Shown here one piece after another: positions 13,401-63,119 of a stretch of 64,000 bases of DNA. Origin of the DNA: Puffinus mauretanicus (lineage: Eukaryota; Chordata; Aves; Procellariiformes; Procellariidae); contig JAJKFH010000102.1 in the NCBI GenBank assembly GCA_023333565.1, positions 7,891,001-7,955,000 on the forward strand, read 5' to 3'. The notes under the pieces are model-generated. The model made no database searches. It was not told the origin of the DNA and was given only the letters and a program-made list of their open reading frames with translations. A program made the position numbers and the translations under genes. The number at the start of each line of letters is the position of its first letter. Positions within the stretch are counted from its first letter, which is position 1.

Positions 13401-16400
13401 CCAAAGGTGATAAACTCTCCTTTTTTTCCTGAGTCCCAGCCAGAGCTCCCCGTTCAGCCAGACCGGTCGTCTTCCCCACCCGTTCTTCTTACGGCACATG
13501 GGGACAGCCTGCTCCTGCGCCTTTAAGACTTCCTTCTTGAAGAACATCCAGCCTTCCTGGACCCCTTTGCCCTTCAGGACTGTCTCCCAAGGGACTTTCT
13601 CAACCAGTGTCCTGAGCAGGCCAAAGTCTGCCCTCTGGAAGTCCATGGTAGCGGTTTTGCTGGCCCCCCTCCTTATTTCACCAAGTATTGAGTATTCTAT
13701 CATTTCATGGTCGCTAAGCCCAAGACGGCCTCCGAACACCACATCTCCCACCAGTCCTTCTCTGTTTGTGAACAGCAGGTAAAGCGAGGCACCTCCCCTA
13801 GTGGGCTCGCTTACCAGCTGCGTCAGGAAGTTATCTTCCACACACTCCAGGAACCCCCTTGACTGTTTCCTCTCTGCCATGTAGTATTTCAAGCAGACAC
13901 CCAGGAAGTTGAAGTCCCCCACGAGAACAAGGGCTAGCGACTGTGAGACTTCTGTGAGCCTCTGGTAGAATATTTCATCTGCCTCCTCGTCCTGGCTAGG
14001 TGGTCTATAACAGACTCCCAGCAGGATATCTGCCTTGTTGGCCTTCCCCCTCATCCTTACGCACAAGCACTCGACCTCATCATCACTATCATTGAGCTCT
14101 AGACAGTCAAAGTACTCCCTAACATACAGGGCTACCCCACCGCCTTTCCTTCCTCGCCTGTCCCTTCTGAAGAGCTTATAGCCATCCACTGCAGCCCTCC
14201 AATCGTAAGACTCATCCCACCATGTTTCCGTGATGGTGACAAAGTCATAGCTACCCCGCTGCACAATGGCTTCCAGCTCCTCCCGTTTGCCGCCCATGCT
14301 GCGTGCATTGGTGTAGATGCACTAGAGCTGGGCTACTGATTTCTCCCCCGAAAATGTTTAAATCATCTACGAGATAAGCCAGGCATGCACAGTATACCCG
14401 CTGAATAAGTTCAGTATAACAGACAACCCATTAAAGCCAGACAAATTGATAGAATTTAAATTTTGGTGATGTTCTCAGGCTTGTTGCCTTTCTTCCACCT
14501 AGTGGAAAGAACAGCACAAAAACAACCAAAAAATGGCTTTGATTTACACTTTTAATCGTAAAAAGGAAGATCTTAAGAAGTAAGAATTACATAAAAAATA
14601 AAAATACCTTTATTTCTCTAGCTTCTTCAGATTGCCTTTCTTTGCTTCTAATCTTTAAAACCGGTAACTCCGAAATCTGGCTTTCCTGTGATGTATCATC
14701 TCTAATATCTAGCGTTCTCAGTTTAGCAGATTCCATTTCTAGTACAACATCATTGCTATCTTCAAAGCTGAAATCCATAAAAGCACACGAAAACATTATA
14801 TTAGAGTATTTTAATTAAAAAGCTATTATTGTTTACAGATCAAGTTGCACAGAAAAATTATGCAATTTTGACATTAAATAGCTACATGCGTTTCAGAGAA
14901 TCTGACAAGTTTTAGTGATGTTTGCAGGATATGAGCTTTAAGCAGCTTTTGCACTTTTGCAATGCTATTAGAAGATGATGTTAAAATCCCATCTGAGTAT
15001 TCTACACTAGATAGTTTTTTAAAACAGACTTTAGTAACATAAACACCGTATGCAGAAGCTTTTTTTTCTCCTGATCTTCTGTAGCAATCTACATTGAGTT
15101 CAAAGACAAATACTGTTCCTTCATAAGCTTCCAATGACCTATTAAAGCACATAAAAGCTCTGGGAATCTGTATGAAATAACAAACAATTACAATACAGCT
15201 AAATACAACAGTTAACACGCGAAAGTCTGAAGTAGCGCTAACAGCTTCATAATGACTTTTTAAATTTACCACTTTCTTGTATAACAAGTTTAATAAAACA
15301 TTCACTTTCTTTCTAATAAAAGAATGCCCAAACTTGAAACCAAAAGCTTGCCTCCCACCTAGGTTTTGCACAAATAAAGCCCAAGCAACTTTCCTTCCCT
15401 ACAAGAACCACCTTATTAAAGACATACATAAATTCCAAGCGTATAGGAACATTATTTAGCAACATTACCAAGCAGTGCTTTGAGAGAAATACTACGAGTT
15501 AGGATAAGCCAATAGCCTTCATAGGTGAAAGCAGTTTTGGATGGTATTTTAGTATTAATGTAAATTAACTTTGCAAGGGCAGCCCATCAGTGGAGAGAAT
15601 ATATTGAGAGTGTACATTAAAAACAGCTTACTAAAACCCAGGACAGTCCTCAGAAATCAAAAACCTGCCCATTCTGTGCCCGTTAACATGATGGTAAGCA
15701 TGAGTAAATAAAACCAATATTAAAACTTTAAACTATTTTTTATTTTGCTTAAGCTTTCCATTGTAAGCATTACCTGCATAAATTGACATCACTTTCTCTC
15801 TCCATTATGTCATCCACTGATAAACAGGACTCTGATCCCTCTTCCTCTGTAACAGCAGTCTCATTTTGTTTTCCTTCAACAACACTATCCAGTTCTTCTC
15901 TACAGGTAGTATGACCGTCATTGTTTGCATCACATACCATTTTTTTTTCTGCTAATGAATGAGAATTAAATCAATTTGGACATTCTGGGCAACATCTTAG
16001 AATTCCAATTCTCACATCCTAGTGAAGCAAGAGTTGATTTAAAACAAAAAATCCCAGTAGAAAATGTCTAAGTATTAAGATTTAAGAGAACTGTTATCAG
16101 CAAAAATAAAATGTTCAGATTTAGTATGAAAGCTGATTTTGAAAGGCATTGTTCCACAACCTCCCAAGGCAGATCAGGGATATAAATCAAAACCTAAGTT
16201 CTCATTTTTAAGATGAGAGTTTGCAATATCTTTATATAAAATTTATATTTGAACCTTTGAAAGTGAGCATTTTTGCCTCTTACTTTTCTTAGAGGATTTC
16301 CCTTCTTCAGCAATTTTTGGAGGGACAGCCATTTCTTCTGGAAGATTCTCCACTTCCTGTTCAAGATCGTTTTTTCTCTTCTTCTTTCTCTTCTTTTTTG

Positions 16401-22400: not shown

Positions 22401-25400
22401 CTGCCAACGAAGACCTAGAATTTTATAAAAAGCTACAGATGAACGTTTGTATAGATACATTTCTGCTTCATTTCACAAAACCTGCTTTTAGTGGATAATG
22501 GACAAAGAAACACAAAGCTTTTTTTCAATTCTTCATACCACACCTGGACTTGAGTCTAACTGAACAACCACCCCTGCTTAATGAATTTTGCTTTTTTTTT
22601 TTTTTTTGTATAACCAAGGACAAAAAAGGATATTTCAAGCAGTAATCCATTGTGAGGGTAGGGAGAATGTGAGAGAATGTTCATTACCTGCTCAAAGACT
22701 ACTCAGTGTGAAAGAAAAAATAACAAGGAAAGTGATAAATAAAACACACAAGCACACAAACATTAACAAGCAGGTAGTCACAGACAGTAACAGAAAACTC
22801 GTCTGCTACTGAGGAAGAACAGGACTTGAACAGCTGTACTTATATTTATGTGATTATTTTTGGTAGTTGTAGGAAAAAGGCCCTGCTCTGTCTGTGGTAG
22901 TCTGTGCAGCTAGCTGCATTAGTGTTCCCTGTGTATATGCACCTCTGGGATGCTCACTCAGCCTTGTTACTGGTGAAATATGTAAAGGGAACAATAGCAG
23001 CTATATCCATCCAGTTGGAATGGAGAGACCTCCTGGGTCCTGCAGTGTGTTTCGGCACCTAGGACGGAGAAATGCTTAGCTTCCTGTAGTCCACTAGATT
23101 TGGCAGGCAGCCATAACTAAAAATCTAATAGCAGTGATTAAAAAAAAAAGAAGAAAAATATTTTCTATTATTCTGCATTTATACAGAGATAAATCAACAC
23201 TAGGGACAGGTTCATGTTTTTTATATTTCAACAAGAACACTAACCTCCATTCTCATTTCTGTATGAAGATTGAGTAGATGTGAAAATGTCTAGTAGCTTT
23301 TGTTACCATTGCAACAATACTGCATCTGCGCTAATACTTCAGTTTTAAGAATTCTCCTTTTCACAATTATGAAATTGGTAGAAAAAGAAAAATCATTTAA
23401 CCTAACGAGAGAGAAAAAGAATCATACTTACTTCATAGGATTGTTTTCTGGCAGATAGTATATCAAGTCCCTCATGGTCATTTTAGAACGATCTGGTGGA
23501 GAACGCCCTTCAATTATTGGAGGCCTGTGTTTCAACTGTTTCCATATAAAAATAAAAAAAAAGAACTTAATTTCACCCTGAAAGTACTTTATATTTCACA
23601 AATTAGTATTTTCCTTTGCTTACAAAGTAACCCATTCGGGCAATTCGTTGTTTCCCTCCCCGCCCCCGCCCCCAATAACTGAAAGAAGTTTATCTTAAAA
23701 GTGTCCCTTTGTCAGAGAGGATGCCACAGACCCATAAGTGACTTACACTTTCAGAGAAATTCAATACTTGGCACAAGTAAAAAGTGAAAAGTTATTCAAA
23801 ATCACAGAACTCGGTCAACAATCAAGTTGAAAAGATATGAGAAACTCCAAATCTCAAGCTTTTTATAGCACACTTCCCCATTGTATTACCAACTGTGAAA
23901 CTTTTAAAATTGGAACGTTGACCATAACATAATAGCAGGTCTTATGTCAAAAAGGCTTGTGGGTCTAATCAAATGAAAAGATACACAATTTCTCATGAAA
24001 TCTGGATTATAAGGGAACACAGTGCTACTACTGCATATTAACAGACAAAACCCATACAGTGTTATGAGATATCACAGACTATGAGCAGTAAGCAGCTGAT
24101 CATCAGAAAACGCTACTGCAAAGAGATAATGTATGTTAGGTGAATCATATGTCTTTGCCCTTCACAGATCAGCAGTGCTCAACACAGAGGCCTACCATCC
24201 GCTCTTTCTTCAGCTCTTCTTTAAGCATTTCTCTTAACTTCCGAGCTTTGAGGATCCTTTCACGGTCAGAACACGTTCGTTTCTCTTTTACAGGAACAGG
24301 TTTCATAGGTAGCTTTTCCTCTTGTGTTCCTGATCTTTCTTGTGTTGGTCTCTCCTTGAGTGGGGAAGGTACATTCTTCTGCAAAGTATCATCATTTTTT
24401 TGTGCAGCTACACCTATAGTTTGCTCTTTGTTCACCGATTTTTTTAGAGGGGAAAACTGTGGCACTTGTGGCACAGGTGTCTTCTTTTCAGGCAGCATGG
24501 GGGACTTCAAGGTGCTTTCAACATTACTCTTTTCTGATGGAGAGGAATCCTTCTGAAGTGAAGCACTGCCATCAAGAGCCTGTGATGCTCGCCTCTGCGG
24601 TTTTGATGCAGAACGCTGAGCAGATGAAGGTCCAGCTCTGGGTTTGACAAGATTGGGCATGGTGGAGATCCGTTTTCTTCTCTGTGTAGGCATCTCTGCA
24701 GGTTTACTAGCTTCTCCAGCATCATTTGAGCTATCAGCCTTGTCATCGCTGGAAAATTTAAGAGAGTATTCTGAAATACTTTACAGTGACAGATTTGTAA
24801 CTCTTACTTTCAAGATATGTTTATGTGCCAATCAGTATAAACTACAGAAAAATACAGTTATATACAAGAAGCCACACTAGAACCAACCTGTAGCTGGTAC
24901 TTCCTCATAAACTAATCCGCTATAAGAACTGGTATATTATTTTCTAATATTAATTACTATTATTTAATGTTACTGTTACAAGCTACTTGACTAGCAGTGC
25001 TAAACTCACATGTTCCTTCCTCAGTCCCTCCCTTTTTGGAAGGCTCTCTACTTTCAGCTGAGAATACCAAACATCATAATACAATAAAGCTTTTTAAAAA
25101 ATAAGCCACATAAGTGACATATTAAAAACATTTTCATAAAGCTATATACAACAAGTAGGTTGATGATTTTTATTACAATCAGTCTGAACATTCCTCTTAA
25201 ACATTTGCAAGTAGAGGATATGTAAACTCTGAATTTGAAAAAAAACTCAGCAGCGAAACCGGCTGCTGTTAATCTACTGCTCACACTTAATATATCAAAA
25301 GTAGCCTTTTAGAGGCAACAACTTTTAGCTTTCCTGGAAAGCTTTCTATTTAAGTATTTTTTCCATCCCTTACTCAGAAATAATTTTCAAAGTGCAAGCA

Positions 25401-29798: not shown

Positions 29799-35391
<5,593 letters not shown>

Positions 35392-36857: not shown

Positions 36858-41006
<4,149 letters not shown>

Positions 41007-43214: not shown

Positions 43215-43729
43215 TTATATTAACCTAACCCTGCTGTAGAAGAGACTGGCATGTTTCATGCTGGTAAAAATACAATACAATACATGTTTATTTGCAATGC
43301 AGGTGTATAATTCATAATACACAAAGGAAGAGGAAAAAACCCAAACCCTAACACTTTCAAACTTTTCTAGTCTTGAAAAACTGGTGAAGTGGCAAGACCC
43401 ATTGCGAGATAATTTTAAACTCCTAGACTGGGGATGCTGCTCCTTCATGATATCAAACATTTTAAGGTCGTCTGCATCAAGGAGCCAACCCGTCATGACT
43501 ATTGTCACAAGACCAGGCAATTGAGAAACACACTGGACAAAAGCCGTCACTGTTGATGCTCTGGCTTTGATCTGATGTGTGAACATAGGGCTAATGTCCA
43601 GCTCTTTTAAAGCAGGCATGTTACTAAGTGTTCTAAAGAAGTTTCTCCAACCAGTTTCTGTAACATTGTGATTTACTAAAAAAGTGAGAGCTTTCCAAGC
43701 TTCTGGAAACCTCCAGTTTGCAACCTTTG
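43215..43729 (-). pseudogene. NAIP: NAIP last coding exon with shifted C-terminus
   Basis: The exon begins at 43729 (KVANWRFPEAW) and runs through TLSNMPALKELDISPMF and WLLDADDLKMFDIMKEQHPQ. A one-base change near 43411-43416 puts the C-terminal SQWVLPLHQFFKTRKV and its TGA (43357-43359) in another frame. The unshifted frame reads on to 43215. An AATAAA on the minus strand at 43292-43287 fits the old polyadenylation signal. Confidence 0.88.
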
Positions 43730-44717
43730 CTGCAAAAATAAACAGACATCAGTAAGGATTTAAAGATGCTCCAAACCCATATGAAACATGAACAAAAACA
43801 CACTGAAGCTGAGGTATTGTACATTAAAAATAAAACAAAGTTGTTGTTGCTATCAGGTTGAAAAAAGTAGAACTTTGAACTCATCTCCTTTAAGCATTTT
43901 AATACCTCAGACTGAGGAGACTGATGAAATACAGGATACTTTAGCAGGCACATTAATGCTTGGTAGAAGAAGATACCAGTGTGTTTATGAGTGTTCGAAT
44001 ACCACTCTTACAGAACAAAGCAAATACAACACCATCTTACACAACCACGTGAGGTCAGATCAGCTCTGCACAGATGGAAGATACTGAGTTTAACAATCTC
44101 TTCCATGCCTGTGTACCATCACATATCCTCTTCAGTCTTGCCTTGGTCAGCCTACTTAATTACCATCAAGTCACTATATATACTAAAATGCAAGCCAAAA
44201 ATAAAGGAAGATGGTATGACAGACTCAGCATTTGCTTACAAAAGAAGACATTTTTCCCTAGCCTATATATGAGATGGTAGTTTTAAGACTATAGTACATA
44301 AGTATTAAATTCAAGAAATAATTTTGGTAATACACAGTTTTAACAGCTAGGGCACATAAGCCAATATAACTAGCAATGAAGCTATGAAGCTCTATTTTAA
44401 GTCAGTCAGTCTTTTTTTCCACTGATTATTTTTCTTGTAATTTACATGGCTTTGTAGAAGGCAAGGGGAACTAAGGAGGCATTTCAAAAGAGGTTTCAGC
44501 AAAGTCTAGTATATAAGCAGTTTGAATACACTTTGATGAGCAAGAAATATTTGGGGCTGTATATAGAACAAACAGGAAGAAATGAGACCCATTAAAAATG
44601 ACAAATAATTTGCGATTGTTATAATGTATACAAACAGAAGATTAATTTATCCTGAAGCAGTGTCTTCTCTACTCAGAAATGTTATTTCATGTTTGAAGTG
44701 CTCTCCTTTGAACTTAC

Positions 44718-44882
44718 CTATTTCTAACAGGCTGTCATCATCCAGACATAGAATAAATAAGAAGCATCTGAGGTGCAGCAGGTGTAGACACTGCTGAACA
44801 ATCAGTTTGGCTGCAGACTTTATTCCCTTCCCTGCAGGAAGGATGAGCTCCTCCAGGTTAAGAAGAACACCTAAATTGCATG
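44718..44882 (-). pseudogene. NAIP: NAIP LRR exon (open)
   Basis: 165-bp exon with intact splice sites, encoding LNLEELILPAGKGIKSAAKL and CLDDDSLLEI. It is phase-compatible with the last exon (Gly/Ala codon split across the junction). Confidence 0.85.
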
Positions 44883-46004
44883 CTGCAGAGAGACGACGAC
44901 GACATTTCCTGTTAAGATTAAACAGGAATATACGTTTCCTAAATCTTGTAATGCCAATGAGTGACAGCAGCAGAGCCAAGTAAAAAAATATTTAAATTTA
45001 GATTCTGGGCAATAGGTTACTATCAGCTTTCTTCCCTCAGGTTCGCCCTTGCGGTTGTTGCGAAGGTCGCTTCACTCTAACTCAATAGCTTGAAAAGGTC
45101 ATCAATAGGAAAGGCAGAACTACTTCTCCAGAAAGGGTCTAAGAGGTCCCATGAGTCCTCTAGACATAATAGGAATCTTCCATGTTGCCAAACTCAAGGC
45201 AGGAAAGAAAAAGAAATTAGGGTAATCCTCCCTTCCCAAAATGCAAGCCTTTTCAACCTTTTCCTGTTCCCTATAGACATAGCTTTTGCAGGAGGACCAT
45301 CTTGGCTTTCAGAGGTGCTGAACACCTCCGATTCCATAGTTTAGGACAGCCATCCATCTCACTTGGCTCATCCCTCTCAGAAGGATGTGAACGTGTGCCC
45401 TTCATCACAAACTGCTTTGTGATACCTGATTTAACATTCTAGTTTTAGATACTCTCCAGTATCTCAAATGGCATTTAAGCTGTTCAAGTTATTTCTTAAG
45501 AGCTCCAAAAGAACGTGAAGCAAATAGAGCTGGGTAATTGTTATCATAGTGTACAAAAAATTGGTTATCTAGGGGCCCCGGACTGAAAAGTAAGCTTCTT
45601 CCTGGAATAAGGCAGCTAAAATAGAAGTCACAACCCGCTCACTGACCTGTCAGAGCAGCTATGCACATGATCTGCACTTAGCTGCCAATTGTGCTCCCTC
45701 TCTTCTTCCTCCCAGCGGACTGTAAGTGGTGAGAAGGGAAAATACTCACTCCAGGAAAACAAAGGGTACAGTCCTGCTCATTCCTCCGTACTATCTTATG
45801 GAGGTCAATAAAGTTACAGCCCTGAAAGGTTCAGCTCCTCTTTTTTGTGGTAGTTGTAACCTCAAGATAGAAGCCATAGGGCAGAAGCAATGGGAAGACA
45901 ATTCAGAGAAGCTACATGTTTGTTAAAGGAGAAATTAAAACTGCTTCTTGATATTAACAAGTTATAGTGCAATACAGTACCTAAAGTTTTACAGTGCACC
46001 TTAC

Positions 46005-47085
46005 CCAGCCTAGAGCTGTTTTCAAGCTTCATTTTGCTCATCAACAATTTTTCTTCATGTTACAGAGATTTTTGAAGCCACCAGGTATTGTGTCAAATAC
46101 ATTGCAGTTCTCACATTGACTCACTGACAGTTCCTCTGGGCAAATGAATTTGTCCAAATTTGAAAAAAGTAGTTCTGTGGTGAAGCCAGCAAACATACAA
46201 TGAAACTGAGTTGATCTGCTTAATCCCTCTGTTCTTCTGCCAATTTGCCAAGGTTTTTGTAGCTGAACTTCACTATCTATCTCACATCCTAACATATTTG
46301 GCTTCCCTTCTCCTGACTGCTGTTTCCTATCCTCCTTGTACCACTGCTCTTCCCTGCCAACTCATCCTTCGCTGAGGCTTCTGCTGCTTGCAGCCTGAGC
46401 ATACGCTTGGCAGGATCCCATAAATGCACCTGCACTACCCAGTATTCTTCGATGTTGAAAGCCTAGTGCAGACCCACTCAGATTGCCCCAAGCAAAAAAT
46501 GCACGTCCATCGGTGCCTACGAGCTTGTCCTCTGTACTGCACCACCTTCTGCTGAAGCGCAGTTCTCCCTTTGTAGTGACATACGCCTTTTAGATCAAAA
46601 ATCAGTATCGAGGTCATAGTCTGAAATTAGGGGCCAGGATGGAAATCTGTTAATGCAGAATGGCTGACTATCCCCTGAAATGCATATGGTACAAGACAGC
46701 TTTATTATTCAGGCATATGGAGCTGTTCAGTTGTCAGGCACCAAGGGGAGAGGAAGAAAAAGGGAACTAGAGAGAAAAATTACATTCTGCCAAAATTCAG
46801 TACGATGTACCTGGCATTTCTTTTTCATTTATCTCAAGACATTCCACAAAAGAAGAAGCAATTCTTGCTCTGTTATGCTCAAGTTAAGATGATGTAGACT
46901 ACATTTTTTAAGATGTTCCTCATACTGATCCACAGCAGGTCGGATAACTTCTATGAATCCAGGACTGTTATTCAGCTGAAGTTCAATACAATCCAAAATG
47001 GAAAACAGTGTCATCAAATTTCTGAGGTCAGCTTTCTGAAAGGAACTGATGTTGTTGAATGTACATTTTAAAAGCAGCATCTTCC
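46005..47085 (-). pseudogene. NAIP: NAIP LRR exons, first part
   Basis: Two segments. 47085 to about 46830 encodes LMTLFSILDCIELQLNNSPG and SITEQELLLLL. 46174-46005 encodes LLFSNLDKFICPEELSVSQC, then a one-base shift at an A-run (46046-46056) before LLMSKMKLENSSRLG. Both match the start of the mammalian NAIP LRR region. The exon between 46005 and 44882 was not found. Confidence 0.8.
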
Positions 47086-47169
47086 CTGTTGTAAGTAGGA
47101 AAGGACAAACGATGGAGTCTGGTAGATGTCTTCTTATCAGTGAAAGAAAGCTATTAATGTTTTTCTTTT

Positions 47170-48929
47170 CCCCTCTTTCATTTTTTGTGCCATGTCATTA
47201 AAAAGTGTAAATGCAGGAGTGTAATCCCGGTCAATTGTTGGTATCTCCAGTGAACGATAGGAAGCACCTATTTCAGATATATTAAATTCTTATTTGTGTT
47301 CTCTCCCTTGTACTGCAACCTGAAAACTGCTGGGTAGAGACAGCAATTCTGGGTAATCCTGAAAAAAACGCAACTTAGATTTTTGTGGTGACAAAAATGA
47401 ACTTAACAAAATATCTTTGTCTCTTGGGAATGAAAAAATGATTGGGGCACACACAGAAACAGTATTACTCTCATAAACTACAGAAGTAGCAAGGTCCAGT
47501 AAATACTGAATGAAACTGGAAGAAGCAGTTTTGGATCAATAAAACTTAACTGGTCAGTGAAGAACATTCTTATTGGAAGGTCTGAATGGTGCTGCAGACA
47601 TTCATAATTTTCTGATTGGCTTTCCAATGACTCCTTGCAGTCAATCGATTTAAATAAATAGGATATAATTTGGGGGACTGCTTTGGAAGAAAAGCTGCAA
47701 GTGTAAACCAATAAAAAATTATAGCACCCAGCAATTTTTCTACATGTGTTGATTTGCTGCAAATACTGCAACCCTTGCTCCAGTTTTTCTTTCATCAGAA
47801 ACCAGCAGCTCGCTCAGTCTTCTCCCTGCAAGAAACTCCTGGAACAAGGGGTGAAAGAATTTATAAACTGGATGAAGCCTTTGGGCAGTAAATTTGCTCA
47901 GTAAACCCAGCCTAACAGATTCATCTCCGTCAACTCCTGCTTCAGATAGATCATACTCGGTGAAATCGAAGGATGGCTTGAAGAGACAGGTTAAGGCAAG
48001 CTCACCACATGAGGAAAACATAGGTAGTACATGTTCTCTTTCTTCACTGTATTTTAGTAAGTGATAGTAAGTGATAGTGCAGATAGCCTTTAAAAATAGC
48101 CTTATCACTGATTATGTTACCCTTTGGGTGCTGTACCCAATACGCAGCGAGAGACACCATAAGAAGTGACTTTAGAATGGTCTGCATAGACTTTCCAAAC
48201 TCCAGCTGAAAGAGAAGCTGCTCCACAAGGTCGCTATTGTAGGAGAACAATTCCGTTAGTACATACAGAGTGCTGGACAGAGGGAACTTTGCAACCCTTG
48301 AAGCGGTGGTTGCATACTTGCAAATTTCTCCTGTCCTGTTAGTGCGGACAGCAACATCCAAACAATGCTGGTAGAGACGGTTCCTTTATATAAGTTCTTC
48401 TACGATTTGGGGCACTGAATTAATCTCATTATAGTCATCCAAAAGAGAGCAGACCTGTTTTTTCAGTGGCTGAATTATGTCTCTTAGAGTTGTTTCTGTT
48501 AACGGTCCCACAAATCTTACTGGCTGGTTGCATATATCATCAACCATGTTCTGAATCTGATCTTGCATGAGTCAGGGAGAGATAAAATACAAACTTAAAC
48601 CTGCTCAGAACGGGGCAGCAGCCTGAGGCCCAAAGAAGAACTATTTTCCTGAGCAATGCTGTTTTTCCACTTCCTGCTTCACCTTCCAGCACAATGGTGG
48701 AGTTAAAGTTCTCAAGGGTTTCATGAAGAAAGAGCTGCTGTATTGGCTGATCATTAATACCCTTTGAGACAAGTGATAGGTCCTCATAGAGTAATTTCAA
48801 GTCAATAGCCGAATGGTTTGAATTCCCAAAGGAAAACAATTTGCTGAAGCTGTTATCATTGTAAGCCTTTGTAAGTTGTTGTGTCAAGTTCTTTGCTTCC
48901 TGAAGGCACTGACTTTCAACAAGTGTCAT
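47170..48929 (-). pseudogene. NAIP: NAIP NACHT exon, multiply disrupted
   Basis: The large NACHT exon. The Walker A motif EGEAGSGKTALLRK and the following LLWASGCCPVLSRF are intact near 48700-48600. Walker B-like CSLLDDYNEI follows after a frameshift near 48545-48565. Then come TAA at 48386-48388 (AVRTNRTGEICKY continues in the same frame), a shift from a perfect 10-bp duplication AGTAAGTGAT at 48056-48075, FSSCGELAL and SKFTAQRLHPVYKFFHPLFQ in the next frame, and further shifts near 47775-47800 and 47500. A TAA at 47290-47292 precedes IPTIDRDYTPAF. Exon ends are approximate. Confidence 0.9.
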
Positions 48930-50780
48930 GTGTGCAGAAAGGATGACATTAAATAATAAAATCTAGTGAACTGTTGATTCTGTACACAAAAGTCAAATAT
49001 AGTCAGCTGTCCATTAAATTGGAGTAATAAGAACTTGAGATTTTCTAGATAATGAAAAAACCAGGTATCAGTTATTCTTCTGGATAAACCAAGTTCCCAC
49101 AGTTTCTCTTTGTCCTACTCAGTTGGCTTTACACCCATCTGGTTTAATGTGGAGTTAGTTTGTGTGTAGCAAGTAATCAAGTGATAAACTTGAGCTAAAA
49201 ACCTTTGCTGGACCTGACCTAGCTCTGTGCAGAGACACGCTGATATCTCAGTGCAACGATCCCTAGCCTTCCATGGTCAAGAAAGAATAATTAGCTCAGA
49301 TACAGCACTGTGTCAATAAACAACTGAATTGCCAGTCTCGCAAGCAGGCTCAGAGAGTGAAGACACATTCAGTTGGCAAATGACCATGCAGAAAAAGCAG
49401 TGTTAAACTTGACCTTAATATCCTTTCTGGACCCACATTAGCTTCCCACAGAGCTGTTGAGTCTCTGCACTACGCTCTCTAAAGCTATTGCTCTGCCAGG
49501 GTTTCTAAGTTCTGGTACAGAACATCAATTCTGGATAGAGCTAGCTACATTGTCCACAAAATAGATAATCTGCCCCAAAATAAATGTGTGGGGGCTGTAC
49601 TTTGCTATTTCTGAACAGCTGAAATAAGGTAAATATACTTTTACATTGATGTAATTATACAGATATGCAGTATATGTATTGCCAAAAAACCCCACAGTAA
49701 TTTGTTGTATCAAATGAAGCAGTACCATTTTATTATTTGCATGTTAAAGAAAAGTACAGTGAACCCCAGATATACTCACTGGCTTTTCCTGCCATCTTCA
49801 CTAAAAGATGACACCAGAGAGCTCTTTTCTGAAGAATTTCAGACAAGATAGGGTGTATTTATGCCATAGCCTGGGGAACTAGGACTTCCTACCAGAAACA
49901 GCCGCAGTCACTTTCAGTAAAATGGAGATGTACATGTTGGTGAATACAAAGAATGAACAAACATCTCAATTAATAAACTGGCAACTATGACTTTTATTGT
50001 TCTCTCCATCATTTCAGTACCATGAGATTTAAAACTATTATTATGCTTTCAGAGCTCTCATGTGCTTTTTATTACCTTCAAAAATTACAAAACGGCTCCA
50101 TCTGATACATATATCCCAAATAACTTCGTCATTTCTGGGAGGCAGTAATAGCCGTTCTCGGATTAACAGAAGGCTGCTAAAGAAAGAATCTGGGCAGTAC
50201 CACTATAGCAAATTTACTTTTGAGTTATCAACTCTGTGCTTGCACATCAGTACTGTTCTGCAGCATTGCGTATGACCTCTTCCCTCAGAAATCCACACAA
50301 ACGTATCAACAAAACCACTCCCTTGAAATGCCATAGTATTTGGAAAAAGGAAGCATCAGAAGCAAGATAGTGGAAGGTTATCCCAACTTAGTTTCTTTTG
50401 TATCTAAAAGCATGTACATATGTAGTACGCAGCTGATATACATTTGCAATTTTCCAAAACGTGACTGAAAAAAAATCATACCATATTGTCACAAAATAAT
50501 TTAGTTTGCTTATATGCCTCGTCTGCACAGAAGTGACTTTCACCTGCTAAGGGATTGGTTTATATTCATAGATTACAAAAGCAAGCAGTACCTGACAGAT
50601 TCTCTGCTATTTGTTGTCCCTATATAGGGACAATCCATAAATCCTAACTCAGTCCTTTCTTCAATGAAAATTTTGTCTTACCAAGCAAGAGCGAAATCCA
50701 GAAAACCATTAACAATCCTCTCAAACTAAAATGTAAATCCAACACCGCCATCCTTTCAGGTGAGGCTGCACAGTACTTAC

Positions 50781-50838
50781 CAGCTCCTACAGAACGTAGG
50801 GTTGCTTCCTCTTCAAGATTTGCTTTACAGGGAGTTTG
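50781..50838 (-). pseudogene. NAIP: Tentative small NAIP exon between BIR3 and NACHT
   Basis: A 58-bp segment with a TTCTAG acceptor and GTAAGT donor, open as QTPCKANLEEEATLRSVGA. It loosely resembles the acidic linker before the mammalian NACHT. Sequence support is weak. Confidence 0.4.
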
Positions 50839-51960
50839 CTAGAACAAAACCAAATCCAGTTATACTCCCTTAAATATTTATTATTCAGTTCAAACTGAGT
50901 TGCTTAGGTACCAGCAAGCACCAGCAGCTACAAGGGCAATTTACAACAGATGCAGTACTAGATCTGTATTTTTCAACACTGGCAAATTTCTTTTACTCCT
51001 CCCAGCAGCAGGACCTCAGCTATAATGCCCATCTACCTTTATCTCTCTCCCCCGTAAGCTTTTTCCATCCCAGGGTTTTGCTGCCTGCCTACCAAGGGTA
51101 CGAGGCCCAGCTCTGATATGACACGGATGCATAACCTTGACGCAGACTGCGGAGAGAAAGCGGTGAGGCAGTCTGCGGAGACGCAGGGAAGCTACCGCTA
51201 AGGCAGAGGAGCAGGCTGAGAGAGGGTGGCTGATGGCGGAGGACCCTGCCACGAGCCTGCCCAGCAGAGACCCTTGTTCGCCTGAGCGGGGAGGTGAGCA
51301 TGCTAACGCTTGGCCTCAGAGCTTGTAACGTCCCAGCTATCTTTAGCATGAGTTAGCGAATGAATCATCGCTTTGTCCTTCTCAGTTGTGTATATCCTCA
51401 AGGTGCCTGAACGAACCGACCCAAGAGAGGAGCTGCGAGATCTCCCACAGTAACACCTCCTGCACAAAACCGCTCCAGTAGCTTCCCGCAGCGCCACAAA
51501 CTGGGACTCAGCTTCCCCCCTCCCACCAGCCTCTCTGCGGTGGCCCCTCGACAGTCCTGTGGTTCCCGTGGCCGTGCCCAGCACCCCGCGCTGGGGTACT
51601 TTGCTACCGACAGAGCAGCCCAGGGGCCCAGGCGCTGTCGCGCACGTTACAATTTGCCAGCAAAGGATGGTTGGTGTTAATTACTGAAACGCTGATTGCC
51701 AGTAGCCGCCCTGCAGAGGCACTTTCTCCACAACTCGGGTCAACGGCTGCAGGCAGGCAGCCGCTGTTTGGGGATACGAGTTTGAGCACCGCAGGTACCC
51801 GAGCCACGGGGCTCAGAAACACCTTTAGAGCTGCCCTGCCTGCCCCACGCCGACACAGGTCACAGACCCCCTACCCGTTCAGCCACCTCTGAAATGCGGT
51901 GCATTCAAAAGGTTGTCCGGGACGAAGAACTGCAGCAAGCTGCCATTGCTGCTCGTTCTG

Positions 51961-51984
51961 CACACACACACACACACACACACA
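51961..51984. repeat. (CA)12 microsatellite
   Basis: Twelve uninterrupted CA units in an intron of the NAIP pseudogene. Confidence 0.97.
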
Positions 51985-52442
51985 GGCTCCCTGTTACTGA
52001 ACTATCATTTAAAATTGCAAAGCACAAATACTGCTTCACTAACAGCAAATACTGCAGACTAGCGCAAACCTGTGCAGACCGTAATGTTGATGGGCTCTCC
52101 AGTTGCTCTTCCAATGACTTTCCAAGTACTTCCAAGCAGTTGGAACTAGAATGATGTTTTCAAATGACGTAGCAGTTAGTGCAATGCATTGCTTCAAATG
52201 CTTACAGTTGGCAGAAAGATCGAACTATTTCACAAACATTCCATGTGTTGGAAAACTTTTACTGTATTTCTATATTTAAATATTAATTAAAAAAAGGTTT
52301 TAACAGAGGCATAATATCCTATACACTCAAGAAACATAGTTATTTATATACATTTAAAGTAGTATGAAAAAAACAACAGCAAAAGCGTATGGCAGCTTTC
52401 ATCACACAGCAGGAAATTGCCTTAAGATACTCTGTCACTCAC

Positions 52443-52542
52443 GCAGGGAACCATTTTACATGTTCTCCCATAGGATCTTCACCTTCTTCCCATTCCTGTA
52501 AGCAGCCTGCACAGCTGAAGCACTGTACCCTATTGCCTCCTC
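52443..52542 (-). pseudogene. NAIP: NAIP BIR3 exon (intact)
   Basis: 100-bp exon, the same length as the BIR2 exon, with both splice sites. It encodes NRVQCFSCAGCLQEWEEGED and PMGEHVKWFP, with the zinc-binding Cys pair and His present and no stop. The following exon that should supply the last zinc Cys was not found. Confidence 0.88.
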
Positions 52543-53076
52543 CTGCAAGCAAGAAATTACACACCTCAAAAATGGTCATGTACATGATTTTTTTCCTTAC
52601 TAACATGCCAGCAGCATAAAAAAACTGCAACAATGCAGTTGTTTCATGAGTTTACTTCAGTGACCTCTATCTGTTACTGGAATTACATGCTTTTTAAATC
52701 ACGAATAATAAAAATTAAATCAAGAACAAGAAAATGCCACAGAATTGAGAGATGTGCCATTATTGTCCTTTTAGTGACACCAGACAAATGAATATACGAG
52801 TGCCCAGATAAATGCTTTCTCCTTTCTAAAAACATATCCTCCTTGCAACTCCTTGCTCTGGCTTTCACCTCAGACAGGGTCATTCTATTTTGATTCCCTC
52901 GCTCTGGCTTTTGCAAAAGGCATTTTCATTTTGCAGCTGCATTACCCTCCTTACTGAAAGCTAAAGCAAGATTTTAATTAGATACCAGGATTATCCTGAA
53001 CGTCTGTCCCACCTGCATTGGAAAGTGGATCTTTTACTTGTCCTCTGTTTACATAGCTAACAAACTTGGTTCAAAC

Positions 53077-54696
53077 CTGTATAGAAAAACCCGGCTTTAG
53101 CAAGAGCAGTGGCTTCAACATGGGCTTCTGCTGGCCAAGTTTTAAAAGACTCCAGTTGAACTCCTTCATCCTCAAAGATGTTCAAGATGAGCTCACCTTT
53201 GCAATCAAAGATATTTGATTAGTTAGGAGAGCTTTAGCCTGCTTTCGGATTCTTCAAAGCAGGAACAGAACTAGATTGCAAATATGTCAGGCTTACAGCA
53301 AACCAAAACCACGACTACAGAACCGTATCTTTCAGGCAATTATAAATGTATATTATTGATTTATAGTACAGATGAAAATCTCTGTTTTTCTTTCAAAGCC
53401 TTCAGGTTTCATTTGTTTCTCACCTCTCTCTTACCCAAGCAAATGGAAGTAAGATAGATCTACTTAAGCAGCATGTTTTATATTTAGCTTCTAAAGAGAA
53501 CAAATTTATTCTTGTGGTAAAAATTCCAGAAATACAGAACCAATAATCTTTCACACATGTAATCTTGCTTTAAAAAAAAAAAAAAAAGGCAACAGTCTGG
53601 AGCAGCTTTCATTATTAATAGTGATGTACAATAAAAATACGAAGGCATTATTTTCTAATGAAAAGCTAACAGTCAGTATATTCTATTTTTTTTACCTGTT
53701 GCAGTAGATAAATTCTCCTTGATAAAGGAAGCTGTGAAATGCCTCCCCTAAGCAGAAAATTAAAAATTAATATTTATTTCTATTATGCATTCTATTTTCA
53801 TTTCACTCTTCAGCTAAACGAAAGAAATAACTATAATATATAAACAGGGCTAGTACTAAGTATCAACATTTTAAATGCTTTCAGTCTGAGAGAGAATTTT
53901 CTGAAACAGAATTGACTAATGACAGGTTACTATTAATGAGAAGAAATGGCTATCCTCAGACAGGTCTAAAGAAAGGAAGACAGCACTGATGCTCTTAAGA
54001 TATCTGAGATGGTGTTTTCCAAGTGATACTTGCAGTCCTCTTATCTTACATTAGCTAATGGGTTTAGCTTCCAGATTTTTTTGAGATTTTGGAGGCATAG
54101 GGGTTTTAATAATGAAAGATCTTACATATATTATATTTTTTCTGATGAAAGCAAGACCCCCAAGCAAAGATGAAGTCATACAAGAAGAGCTGGCAGGGTA
54201 GAGTTCACCTAACTTGACTTCAGCCATGTGGAAGTGCTTAGTTTAGCATAGTCACCTACTATCTTCCTAATAATCAATATATATGTATAGGTGCCATGAG
54301 GCGTTAATTCATCCGTCTGCCTTCGAGTAGGATAAATGCCAATTAGAGGTATGTTGCTTTTCATCAACGGACTTCCTAGGTACTGCCTAGGCAAGCAGCT
54401 TGGATGCACACATCAAAATAAACTTACATGAAACAAATTCCACCTAGAGTGCATAGTGTTAATTACATATGCAATTATATAGAGCTTTGGGGTTGTTGGG
54501 GTTTTTTTTAGAAGGAAGAGGGTGGAAATCAGGATCAAGGCCTAATTTGTCTATTTTCAAGTCCTTGGCGTGTATTCCACAATAAAGGAAGATTGAAATA
54601 GGTTACAAGATTACCACCACTCCAACAAATCTACTGTAGGTTTCAATGTACTTTTTAATTTCCTCACTTGATTTTTTACTTTGAAGGAATTCACAC
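53077..54696 (-). pseudogene. NAIP: NAIP BIR2-BIR3 linker exons
   Basis: Three short exons remain open and phase-compatible: 54696-54615 (CEFLQSKKSSEEIKKYIETY), 53747-53696 (GRHFTASFIKENLSTAT) and 53196-53077 (QLESFKTWPAEAHVEATALA, KAGFFYT). They match the linker and first half of BIR3 in mammalian NAIP. Confidence 0.85.
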
Positions 54697-55171
54697 CTAT
54701 AAAAAAAACCCAAAACTTATTCGTAAGCATTAATTCCAATAAAAATTCTGGAAGCAGTGTTTCAGTTATTAAGAGATGCATACTCAGGATTTTTCACAAC
54801 AGAAAGACAACGAAACAAAGGCAAACTTTTTGGTGCCGTCAGCATTGTTCATGCAACATAGTGACTATCTGAGAGAACAATCAGCTGGCTTTTGCTCAAT
54901 GAAAAGCCCATGGGAGATCTCTAGAAAGTATATTAAAAAAAAATATATGGAATAATTATAAGGTTAGGGATAGCAGACTTATACTGTTCAGTTCTCAGAA
55001 ATAAAGATCTGCTGAAATAAATTGTCTGAATATAACAACCTTGAAGACAAAAATGTGGGGGTTTTTTTTTGTTTGCTTTCTAGCATCATTGCTGAGGAAA
55101 AAAAGACATATCAAAATAAATCAACCTTTTTGTACATACAGAAATATTTCTAGGACAGTCAGTCAATTTAC

Positions 55172-55271
55172 TTAGGAAACCGTTTAGCATGTTATCTCCA
55201 AGGATTATCACCATCTTCCCAATTTCCCAGACATCCACCACAAGCAAAACACTGCACTGTATCTTTCTTGC
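55172..55271 (-). pseudogene. NAIP: NAIP BIR2 exon with in-frame TAA
   Basis: 100-bp exon with good splice sites encoding KKDTVQCFACGGCLGNWEDG and DNPWR-stop-HAKRFP. The zinc Cys pair and His are present. The TAA at 55192-55194 replaces the conserved Glu codon before the zinc-binding His. This is a substitution, not an indel, so it is unlikely to be a sequencing artefact. Confidence 0.9.
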
Positions 55272-55639
55272 CTGCATGTAGAGAGTTACAGATCTCAGAG
55301 ATAATCACGCATTTGTGTGTTTTACTTGCTCACACTCTAGCCATGTGACCATGAGTATACCAGTGTATATCATCGGTCCACAATTTTCTTAGATTATAGC
55401 AACTGAAACTAAAAAGGTTTATAAAACTGCTTAGATTTCCATTTGAGTTGGGTCAGTCTGGGTCTAAACTTGGTGCAGATCCAAAAGTGAAAATACAAGG
55501 TAGATCTTCCCACCAAAATAAAACTTCAGAAATATTTGAGAAATTGTACAGGCTTGATAAAATAACCTTGTCTTCTTTGCTGACTATTTTTTTAATTTTG
55601 CATTCTACCTAATCCGTTTATTTGTAAGAGCTAAGTAAA

Positions 55640-57330
55640 TGAGTAATTCTAGAAACCAATGGAATAAGATGGAGGAACTAGAATTTCTGTCCCTAAGTTA
55701 ACATATCGATAGTCAGCATAAACGTGATGGAAGAAAGATAGGTCAGTCAAATGCTGTACTGGCAGTGTATAAAACATCCAGGGAAAATTGAGTAAACAGT
55801 GCTAGAAGGAAAAGGAGCATCAGATCTTAATGATATCTTAGAACAAAATCGAACTAGCCAACAAAGAGCAAAGATTTTCTACAGCTTGGAACTTCAGGCC
55901 TCTATTGGAATAACACAGTTCTTTGTCCATATTACCAGGAAGACAGAACTGAGTATGTAATGCTCAAAGACATGAGAGAGGCACTGTGGGCATGAAATAG
56001 AATTGTACCCAGTGACTCCAGTTATCCCCCAGTGGACTGCACAGATACCACCTGGAGATGCAAAGTAGAGATGACTTTTTTTTAAGACGCGATCAGGCAT
56101 ACTCTCATGGAGCAGCTGGTTAGCAAGTCTACAAGATGATGTGACTTGGTACTAAGAAACGCACTGGGAAGAGCTCAGAGTCTCATTGTGGAAGTGTCAC
56201 CGTGTAACCATGATTGCAATTTACTTAGATGCAACATCCCCCACAGAAACAGGGAACCTGCTAAAGCTGTGTTAAATTTCAAAACCAGGGACTATGTAAA
56301 GGTAAGGAAGCTGAAATGGCTGACTAAATAAAACCAACCAACCAAAAAAAAAAAAATAAAACAACAAACCAAAAGCCCCCAACAACTCTCTTTCAGGCAT
56401 TTGAGAATTTCCTGAAAGATGTTTTACTGGAAGTGCAACACCAACATGTGCTATTTATTAGAAAAGACTTACGAAATGTTACAGGAAAGGAGTATGACTG
56501 ATAGGAAAATAAATCAGATTACAAGAATTAAGAAGGTATCATTCAAAAAGCTGAAGCTTTTGCGCAAAGAAAACAGAAGGCTCAAAAGCTATGACAGATG
56601 AAGTGTGAAAATAAAATCAGGCAGGCTGAAAAAAAAAAAGTCCAAGGGTAACAAGCTAAAGGAATCTAAACCTTCTTTCAGATAGCAAGAACAAAAATCC
56701 AGTGAAGAGAGCTGATAGATCCAACTGCTAACCAGGCTGCAAAAGAACCATTCAAAGGGGACAATGCAATTGTAGAGGACTTGAAGTGACACTCTGTGCA
56801 ATATTTGCATTAATGTTCACTGCAGAAGAATTCAGGGAGATTCCCATTGTTTAAACCAGGGGGGCCATGCAGCACAAAGTGGATCCAAAATCAAAGCAAT
56901 TATGCAGTAGATTATGGCTGAGTGGGGAAAACATAATGCCAATCTTTAAAAAGCAGTCTGCACCTTTGGGGGCGAGGAAGAGACATCAGATCTGTAAGCC
57001 TGGCATCTGTTACGGACAAATAAGCAGAAAAATGTATAATTATGCCACTGTACAAACCCATGATTAATCCACATCTTAAACAATGCGTGTGATTGAGGTC
57101 CCCTCAACTCAAAAAATAGTGTATTAGAACAGGAAAAGGCACAGGGAACAGCAACAATCAAAATCAAAAATCAAAAATGTGGAACACCTTCCGCATGAGG
57201 AAAAGCTGAGTTACCTATGTTCTTCAGCCTGGGAAAGAAAGCAGTTATGGGGGATACAATGCCGCAAAATGATGAGCAGCACAAAAAAAATATGTTATAC
57301 CCATTCAAATATTGTAAGTAGACTTGCACT
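55640..57330 (+). mobile_element. Degraded old CR1 copy (approximate limits)
   Basis: Scattered CR1 ORF2 landmarks in order on the plus strand: NKMEELEF-like text near 55665-55690, CCACTGTACAAACCCATGAT near 57045-57064, CACATCTTAAACAATGCGTG near 57070-57089, and TTCCGCATGAGGAAAAGCTG near 57188-57207. It has many indels and no coding capacity. It lies in the intron between the NAIP BIR1 and BIR2 exons, antisense to NAIP. Confidence 0.7.
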
Positions 57331-57378
57331 GTTCTATAAATCAAAACAGAAATCCCTCCAAGCATCGCTTCCAATTAC

Positions 57379-57959
57379 CTGTAAAGAAAAACCGAGCTCT
57401 GGCAAGCGAATCAGGCTTTGTTCCTCTGGCATAGAATGGACATCCATCAAAGGACTGCAGCCTCGTGTCCTCCGTGCTGTACCTCTAGGTGTGCTCTGCT
57501 GGGTTCTTCTCCAGCTTCTGAACACGTATGTCGTACTTTGAAGTATTACCCACCTCTTTGCCCGGGACAAATTCACAAGTGGGACAAAATTTCTTTGCTG
57601 TTCGTATGGGGTGCATCTAACCTTCATGGAAAGTAAAACCAATCCACAGCAAAACCATTGTACACTGGATTTAACAAGCGTGTGATAAAACGCAGCAGCT
57701 GCCATTTCTGTCAAAGACCACGACGAATGAGATGTATAGGACAAGAAGGGCTTTAATCCATTGCGTTCATTTCTCATAGTAGGGTTTGTAACTCTTCTGC
57801 ATGTTTATGGACTTCTTGGAATTCTGCCTCCATGTCTTTGGCAAACTTGTGAAAATCAAAGGCTACGCGCGGGAAACGAGCTTGCAATGCAGAAGGATTC
57901 AGCTCATGTATTTCATTGTCATTCATCTCCACTGTAGGGTCCTCTTTGGCAGATATTTT
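57379..57959 (-). pseudogene. NAIP: NAIP first coding exon with broken BIR1
   Basis: The acceptor is at 57960-57961, the ancestral ATG probably 57926-57924 (MNDNEIHELNP). The opening frame stops after about 50 codons; the NAIP-like text moves to a second frame (MQKSYKPYY) and then a third (MRNERNGLKPFLSYTSHSSW). BIR1 is clear there (TEMAAAAFYHTL, QWFCCGL). Near 57590 one base is missing, so the zinc-site half FCPTCEFVPGKEV continues in another frame. A TAG at 57485-57487 then interrupts it before RYSTEDTRLQSFDGCPFYAR. The donor at 57378-57377 is intact. Confidence 0.9.
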
Positions 57960-61884: not shown

Positions 61885-62862
61885 TCATACAGATATGGGA
61901 GCAGGGTGCTCATGAATACAGCCAGGACAGCAGTGCAGAGAATCATGAACAAACAAATCACATTCCACGCAAAATGCATTCTGACACACTTTACATATGT
62001 AAACCTGTGTGGAAAAAATAGAAAACCAAGTCAAATTAGAAAAAAATTATCACCATCATAGCACTACAGTAGGGCAACAGTTGTGTCATCAAGACAGGGT
62101 AAATAGACTGTATTGCTAATATCACAGAAAGCAAATTGAATTAAAGTTTCTAACAGCAAGTATGTCCAAAGGGCTGAGCTCGAGTCACTGTAGATGCTTC
62201 CAAATGGCTAAGAGTGGAAGCTTATTTATACAACTCTCTAGGAAATCCCTTTCCACACTTCTATAGACTTTGCACTCTAAAAGGCCGTGAGTCTATAACA
62301 GAGAACCCTAGTTAACCATGAGATAAACTTCCACAAATACTCTTCTGGTCTTTAGAAGACTATATGAAAGGATCATCTCTACTTCTGACACCCCTCAATG
62401 CAAATTCCAATGCAGTTCAACATACTTACATTTTGATCTTTCATTTCTCCCTGGCAGCCTTGACAATACCTAGAAGCAAAATTGTGTATTTTAACTAAAA
62501 AAAAGGTCAAGGTTGTGTAAAACCCTTTAAAAAACATCTCATACATAGTAACAATTTATGGCAATTATTTCAGCTATTCAACTGAATACACAGGATAACT
62601 GTTAATTGGAACTAGAAGTATTTCTTATTGCCTCAAAACACCCAAACACTCAACAGTGTCTCCAGCAGCAAAGAAGCTGCTGCCAGCTATTCTTACTTTC
62701 TGACAAAAAAATTACAGGGTCCACAAGTACACTCGTTATCACAAATACAATTTGCATACCGTTCCCCCTGATATTCTTCCAGGGGAACTTCCTGAAAGGC
62801 ATCCAAAGGAAACAAGTGATGGTAAGACCGAGCCAGGTGAGGTGCAGACACTAACGTAAGAC
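61885..62862 (-). CDS. GTF2H2: GTF2H2, TFIIH p44 subunit (last three coding exons)
   Basis: p44 is a core TFIIH subunit that binds and stimulates the XPD helicase in transcription initiation and nucleotide excision repair. Three exons are present: 62862-62760 ([20 protein letters not shown]), 62469-62430 ([13 protein letters not shown]) and 62004-61885 ([20 protein letters not shown], then DSLHCCPGC), with TGA at 61887-61885. The C-terminal zinc-binding cysteines of the C4 RING-like domain are all present. Junction phases are consistent and there is no disruption. The first ~300 codons lie right of the window; no further exon was found between 62862 and 64000. Next to NAIP, as in mammals. Confidence 0.95.
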
Positions 62863-63119
62863 CTGCAAATAAAGAGACATCAAAATTATTACAAGAGAGA
62901 ACTTACTGAAAAGCTTTTCTGTATTAAACAAAGCAAAAAGGAAAAAGATTTTTTAATTACTCACTGGTTCAGCACTTTTAAGAATTAAAAATCATAAAAT
63001 TATTTGTTAGCTTCCATAATCCACACCTGTAATCCTTTTCAGAATTAGATCCAAATATAAATTAAAGAACAAGCAAATGGCCCAAATTTCTAATTAAAAG
63101 ATTTAACTCAGTCTTTAGA

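Follow-up and report, generated by a model that had tools for sequence, protein, structure and literature searches.

A degraded NAIP gene between SMN and GTF2H2

The window analysed here is a 64-kb stretch of the Puffinus mauretanicus assembly GCA_023333565.1 (contig JAJKFH010000102.1, positions 7,891,001 to 7,955,000; coordinates below count from its first letter), and our subject is its gene for NAIP, which in mammals is a cytosolic sensor of bacterial flagellin and injection-needle proteins. Gene order in the window is SERF1 and SMN on the plus strand followed by NAIP and GTF2H2 on the minus strand, and mammals have the same order. The NAIP exons lie in sequence on the minus strand at 57959-43367, between SMN and the 3' end of GTF2H2, and a tblastn search of the window with crane NAIP gives colinear matches running from 57956 to 43407. 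Together with the neighbouring genes, these matches bear out the proposal of a first-pass annotation, made from the sequence alone, that a degraded NAIP orthologue sits at its syntenic site. We find that this locus is a lineage-specific pseudogene of an innate immune sensor, a result that we consider real and well supported, and that full-length NAIP cannot be made from it.

When the protein stitched together from the window's exons is used as a query, 29 bird NAIP rows are listed at 65-81% identity (E=0), and chance resemblance is therefore excluded. Our listing of bird NAIP proteins comprises the best 120 of 261 matches plus a second listing of 43 out of 43, in both cases as 90% clusters with one named member each. 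Pfam recognizes BIR (three stretches), NACHT, Nlrc4-like_WHD, and NLRC4_HD in the stitched reading, all over the cut-off, and mouse and human NAIP are the solved structures closest to its first 256 residues. For the C-terminal LRR part, Pfam reported no LRR family, and the flanking LRR coding matches bird NAIP. The locus hence combines the three BIR domains, NACHT, winged helix, and NLRC4-type helical domain of a NAIP orthologue with the expected place beside SMN and GTF2H2. The domain make-up and the SMN neighbour are shared with the readable avian NAIP (baculoviral IAP repeat-containing protein 1) of ibis, pelican, crane, and shorebirds. Nine bird species are named in both the NAIP and the SMN listings, and for 7 of them the two records sit on equal-sized contigs; those of the remaining two, Cariama and Alca, are on different contigs, probably from different assemblies.

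Disabling lesions along the coding sequence

The damage was mapped with a frameshift-aware aligner written for this analysis, using as references the NAIP models of crane, ibis, pelican, curlew, and Nicobar pigeon, all of which read through and share 80.8-85.3% identity with the window over 1303-1307 aligned residues. Three in-frame stops had been described previously, and all of them fall in the NAIP frame in 5/5 alignments: TAG at 57487-57485 in exon 1 (references with Tyr, Cys, or Asp), TAA at 55194-55192 in exon 2 (references with Glu), and TAA at 48388-48386 in exon 9 (references with Gln). The first-pass annotation had missed a fourth, TAA at 47292-47290 in exon 9, which is likewise seen in 5/5 alignments. 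Where it had spoken of several frameshifts, we count 14 frame changes against four of the references and 13 against curlew. The start codon is ATA in place of ATG (57956-57954), while undamaged models begin with MSAKE.

Exon 1 (57379..57959, minus strand, as are all NAIP exons) covers the coding start, BIR1, and the start of BIR2, and besides its stop it carries frame changes near 57803 (-2), 57787 (+1), and 57597 (-1). A shift in this exon had at one point been taken for a 10-bp deletion, which on re-alignment was replaced by the -2 and the +1; the curlew reference gives a single -1 instead. Exon 2 (BIR2, 55172..55271) holds the second stop. The frame is undamaged against all five references in the six exons that follow: exon 3 (54615..54696), exon 4 (53696..53747), exons 5 and 6 with BIR3 (53077..53196 and 52443..52542), and exons 7 and 8 with the linker (52070..52145 and 50781..50838).

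Exon 9 (46811..48931, aligned to the five references) encodes NACHT, the winged helix, and helical domain 2. Its acceptor is dead: the sequence reads TTTCTGCAC directly before the exon's initial AC, in place of CAG followed by AC, so that positions 48932..48933 hold AC and not AG. In a Pelecanus isoform whose translation continues through the intron, this site is occupied by Ala-Asp, which fits GCA-GAC and thus CAG before AC, as judged from the protein. Within the exon we find +1 at 48554, the stop at 48388, a 10-bp tandem duplication (CTATCACTTA twice, 48077-48058 on the minus strand) that shifts the frame and is counted among the frame changes, -2 at 47793, -1 at 47516, the stop at 47292, +2 near 47166, and -1 near 46855, the last two positions varying by up to 15 bases between references. 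All 11 of 11 donors are GT, and among 12 acceptors 10 have AG at the set boundary while that of exon 10 has its AG at 46176-46175, one base upstream of the set boundary. The earlier claim that exon order is preserved thus stands for the 12 exons found, and the companion claim of preserved splice sites holds for the donors and most acceptors but fails at the NACHT exon.

The LRR part begins with exon 10 (46005..46174), which has a +2 near 46052. The interval 44883..46004 would be expected to hold the coding for crane residues 1150-1232, but these 83 residues have no match anywhere in the window when searched by tblastn with either the whole protein or the segment alone; the same tblastn detected an 18-residue exon at E=6e-5. 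The listed ibis and pelican isoforms lack most of this segment too; compared with them the window is short of 29 residues, and only these 29 can be considered a sure loss of LRR coding. Downstream, one LRR exon has an undamaged frame (44718..44882), and the last exon (43367..43729) has frame changes near 43715, 43681, 43406, and 43389 and retains the expected stop TAG at 43369-43367.

Neighbouring genes and sequence quality

SERF1, SMN, and GTF2H2 were placed with human protein queries. SERF1 is represented by two exons (34687..35388, plus strand) and GTF2H2 by 3' exons only (61888..62863, minus strand), no further part of which matched inside the window. SMN (36858..41006, plus strand) was spliced and aligned to references and served as a control: it has 264 codons in 8 exons with AG/GT junctions and neither stop nor frameshift compared with ibis and kittiwake, the sole length difference being 9 residues at an exon border of the chosen placement. 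The description of the neighbours as intact therefore holds in full for SMN, and for the other two only as far as the matched exons reach.

With this clean control next door, no N in the window, and no single-base run longer than 6 near any of the 14 indel sites, we agree with the previous view that the lesions are real and not due to poor sequence. An artefact of sequencing or assembly would be compatible with all lesions coming from one assembly, but base-call errors would not give substitution stops in combination with a tandem duplication, loss of a splice site, absent coding, and relaxed constraint, and SMN right beside them has no stop or frameshift; we see hardly any chance that this explanation is correct.

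Loss of purifying selection

To describe constraint, we defined invariant columns as those identical in 12 non-bird NAIPs, counted changes against the bird consensus, and expressed the result as the change rate at invariant columns divided by that at variable columns. Public bird protein models were called unflagged if they do not carry the "LOW QUALITY" label of NCBI. The window has changes at 20/257 invariant and 109/895 variable columns, compared with 104/4948 and 2117/17227 in 19 unflagged birds pooled (Fisher, p=7e-6; p=4e-5 with Aramus added; 6e-4 for ibis alone and 2e-3 for pelican alone). Expressed as raw ratios, this is 0.65 for the window and 0.04-0.32 for 19 of the 20 unflagged birds, with Aramus also at 0.65. 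A cleaner alignment gives the window 18/256 invariant and 103/896 variable columns and a ratio of 0.61. When badly matching stretches are masked in every row, the window is at 0.63 (17/255; 93/873) and all 20 of 20 unflagged birds are at 0.04-0.31. For Aramus, 17 of the 22 changes at invariant columns lie within residues 193-225, a pattern that suggests an erroneous exon in the public model; masking lowers the Aramus ratio from 0.65 to 0.19. Because the window's 0.63 lies so far from the 0.04-0.31 of the unflagged birds, we conclude from these alignments that purifying selection on this NAIP is gone.

Figures by domain bear on whether the locus might still yield a shorter useful protein, e.g., from the BIR3 exons or the NACHT start. 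Neither stop nor frameshift occurs in exons 3-8 or in the NACHT exon's first 125 codons, and at the start of that exon (crane 389-514) 0/31 invariant columns are changed, followed by ratios of 0.54, 0.76, and 0.88 further along the protein. However, the start codon is lost, the acceptor needed to splice exon 8 to exon 9 is dead, and the window's ratios of 1.07 for BIR1, 1.16 for BIR2, and 0.52 for BIR3 plus linker (1/15 invariant columns) compare with 0.18, 0.32, and 0.27 in the pool of 20 unflagged birds. A surviving short product consequently seems very unlikely to us.

An orthologue decayed in place

Taken as a whole, the locus is best read as the NAIP orthologue decayed in place, to which we assign a probability of roughly 0.9. 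It is an intron-bearing gene at the ancestral site with disabling lesions, a deficit of LRR coding equivalent to one exon or more, and lost selection, and readable orthologue models exist at the protein level in related species, i.e., Theristicus, Nipponia (partial), Egretta, Cochlearius (partial), Pelecanus, and Grus. A first null allele would have been fixed in the lineage, with later lesions presumably accumulating neutrally. From the excess at invariant columns (about 7% vs. about 2%) and the indel load, using a neutral rate of about 2e-9 per site per year, the decay may be on the order of 10-25 million years old, which is a rough estimate. Its likely cause is relaxed need or drift, and the chromosome that NAIP shares with SMN in birds—which we take to be the Z—may have eased fixation of null alleles through its smaller effective population size.

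Some of our observations weigh against decay in place or limit what the comparison can carry. The lesions are seen in a single assembly. As many as 11 of the 20 unflagged models are "partial", and all 20 are public protein models. Two of the 20 changed invariant columns (V1290R and A1291L) fall in a frame-shifted stretch, and the unchanged columns at the NACHT start described above belong here as well. A free NAIP tree does not place the window beside ibis and pelican; it puts it with king vulture, seriema, bustard, crested eagle, and cuckoo roller (Shimodaira-Hasegawa-like approximate likelihood ratio test, 93), and a smaller tree left its position unresolved.

It also counts on that side that the broken gene could be a dead duplicate with a working NAIP elsewhere in the genome, whereas the first-pass annotation had called it a unitary pseudogene, a term that would require this to be the only copy. 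The human genome offers a parallel with its NAIP fragments around SMN, and several bird SMN records, that of Ciconia included, are named "-like", possibly reflecting more than one locus. Yet the broken gene keeps its introns and fills the ancestral slot between SMN and GTF2H2, the 64-kb window contains no second NAIP match of note, and no named stork NAIP is among the listed matches (120/261; 43/43) even though Ciconia SMN is present in the same database. We therefore regard a dead duplicate as improbable.

The SMN comparison further informs on the possibility that the window is a W-chromosome copy while the Z copy works, given that NAIP and SMN are Z-linked in birds and W copies decay. The window's SMN is identical to that of Ciconia maguari at 245/246 residues over the shared part, and the latter lies on a contig of 87 Mb. 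Such a length matches a bird Z and greatly exceeds a W, and an old W copy would be expected to have diverged more, so that a W origin appears extremely unlikely. The next best SMN matches are ibis and kittiwake, with 93% over the whole. In the SMN tree the window and Ciconia were not joined, with kittiwake nearest by identity (96% over 264 columns), an outcome that is probably due to the Ciconia record ending in another last exon.

These SMN data also overturned kinship of the window with king vulture, seriema, bustard, crested eagle, and cuckoo roller, which had been considered based on the NAIP tree and a shared Trp in BIR1. Since a tree that groups ibises, herons, and pelican with the window remains acceptable under the approximately unbiased (AU) test (p=0.31), the NAIP grouping is most simply read as decayed sequences being pulled together. 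The Trp, which replaces a Cys in BIR1, is found in the window, king vulture, and crested eagle, and king vulture is also gapped at the H121 site. Ile takes the place of the start Met in the window (57956-57954), crested eagle, and seriema; this could reflect separate hits or an old shared change and is a lead, with protein models as the only source for eagle and seriema. As separate observations, king vulture and crested eagle are both one residue short at an identical position, an Arg of exon 5 (GVRLDSF), which is what one would see with a stop common to both; they share Val and Ser changes not found in the window, a lead to common loss in that order.

NAIP in other birds

Unflagged NAIP is found among the listed matches for cranes, limpkin, trumpeter, ibises, herons, pelican, shorebirds, gull, auk, pigeons, frogmouth, grebe, and hoatzin. 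By contrast, the models of seven birds are labelled "LOW QUALITY": flamingo, king vulture, crested eagle, cuckoo roller, sandgrouse, bustard, and seriema. Six of these have raw ratios of 0.55-0.77 and flamingo has 0.24. If the high values came from wrong exons in such models, masking should have lowered them, but it left the six at 0.48-0.90 (and flamingo at 0.24). Ratios this similar to the window's hint at repeated loss as far as protein models can tell. Among the listed matches, none is a named NAIP from storks, fowl, ratites, songbirds, parrots, owls, or falcons, while SMN of such birds is present in the same database; as the first listing covers the upper 120 of 261 matches and 90% clusters name one member each, this is weak evidence. 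Separately, environmental records from metagenome sources include bird-like or reptile-like NAIP pieces, one of which joins hoatzin on very short branches.

It is about an even bet that NAIP was lost many times in Neoaves, i.e., in the lineage of the window as well as in king vulture, crested eagle, cuckoo roller, sandgrouse, bustard, and seriema, with cranes, shorebirds, pigeons, ibises, and pelicans keeping the gene. In such a scenario avian NAIP may function independently of NLRC4, and a Z location combined with few remaining partners may favour its loss. Among the titles and abstract openings listed by searches of open-licence papers, none concerned NAIP loss in birds, which does not show that no such report is in print.

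Other features of the window

Outside this gene cluster, a long reading frame of a long interspersed nuclear element (LINE) with endonuclease and reverse-transcriptase domains lies at 11561-14321 on the minus strand (688 amino acids open); we take it to be CR1-like by resemblance, and its long open frames suggest fairly recent activity in this bird. On the plus strand, a 299-amino-acid frame at 411-1310 carries a tandem repeat of about ten residues (ATPTPATGTA) and has no Pfam match. A 203-amino-acid open stretch at 24169-24780 on the minus strand has no Pfam match either and presumably represents the start of BDP1, a SERF1 neighbour in mammals.

Sensor loss in birds and its meaning

TLR5, a surface receptor, offers one comparison. 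Its pseudogenes in several bird lineages, as cited in PMC8619217, also mean loss of a flagellin sensor, but that of a different gene. The same paper describes loss of MDA5 in storks, with about 10 inactivating mutations per sequence, relaxed selection, and a date of 64.5-17.5 million years ago (PMC8619217). The NAIP of the window resembles this pseudogene as an innate sensor with many lesions and relaxed selection, but MDA5 is a sensor of viral RNA and its lesions are common to several stork species, whereas those of NAIP are known from one bird. According to PMC8411117, Canidae mostly lack NAIP and NLRC4 or have them as pseudogenes; the absence or decay of NAIP in a whole lineage is a likeness to the locus studied here, but this is a mammalian lineage and NLRC4 was examined as well. 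Readable avian NAIP models read through, while the locus in the window combines 4 stops and 13-14 frame changes with loss of the start codon, a dead acceptor, and absent LRR coding.

The first-pass annotation had suggested that the bird would lack the flagellin and type III secretion sensor arm of the NLRC4 inflammasome unless another copy exists; this assumes that NLRC4 exists in birds and that avian NAIP uses it. In the accessible part of a 2020 review of avian pattern recognition, the NOD-like receptors (NLRs) with functional homologues in birds are given as NLRX1, NLRP3, NLRC3, and NLRC5, with NLRC4 and NAIP not among them (PMC7157566). A bird NLR study analysed NOD1, NLRC3, NLRC5, and NLRP3; in the part of its text that is available, NAIP and NLRC4 each appear a single time, as entries of a general list (PMC8105094). 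Bird caspase-1 cleaves gasdermin A (PMC10948149).

Any consequence for flagellin sensing hinges on whether another NAIP copy exists, on NLRC4 in birds, and on the ligands of avian NAIP. The likely consequence is that cells of this bird would be without whatever NAIP senses in other birds and, if there is no other copy, it would be a bird without the cytosolic sensor that mammals use against flagellated and needle-bearing bacteria. The more interesting question is whether birds have lost NAIP repeatedly. If this wider pattern is true, NAIP would be optional in birds, and a comparison of keepers and losers could reveal what avian NAIP does without a described NLRC4.

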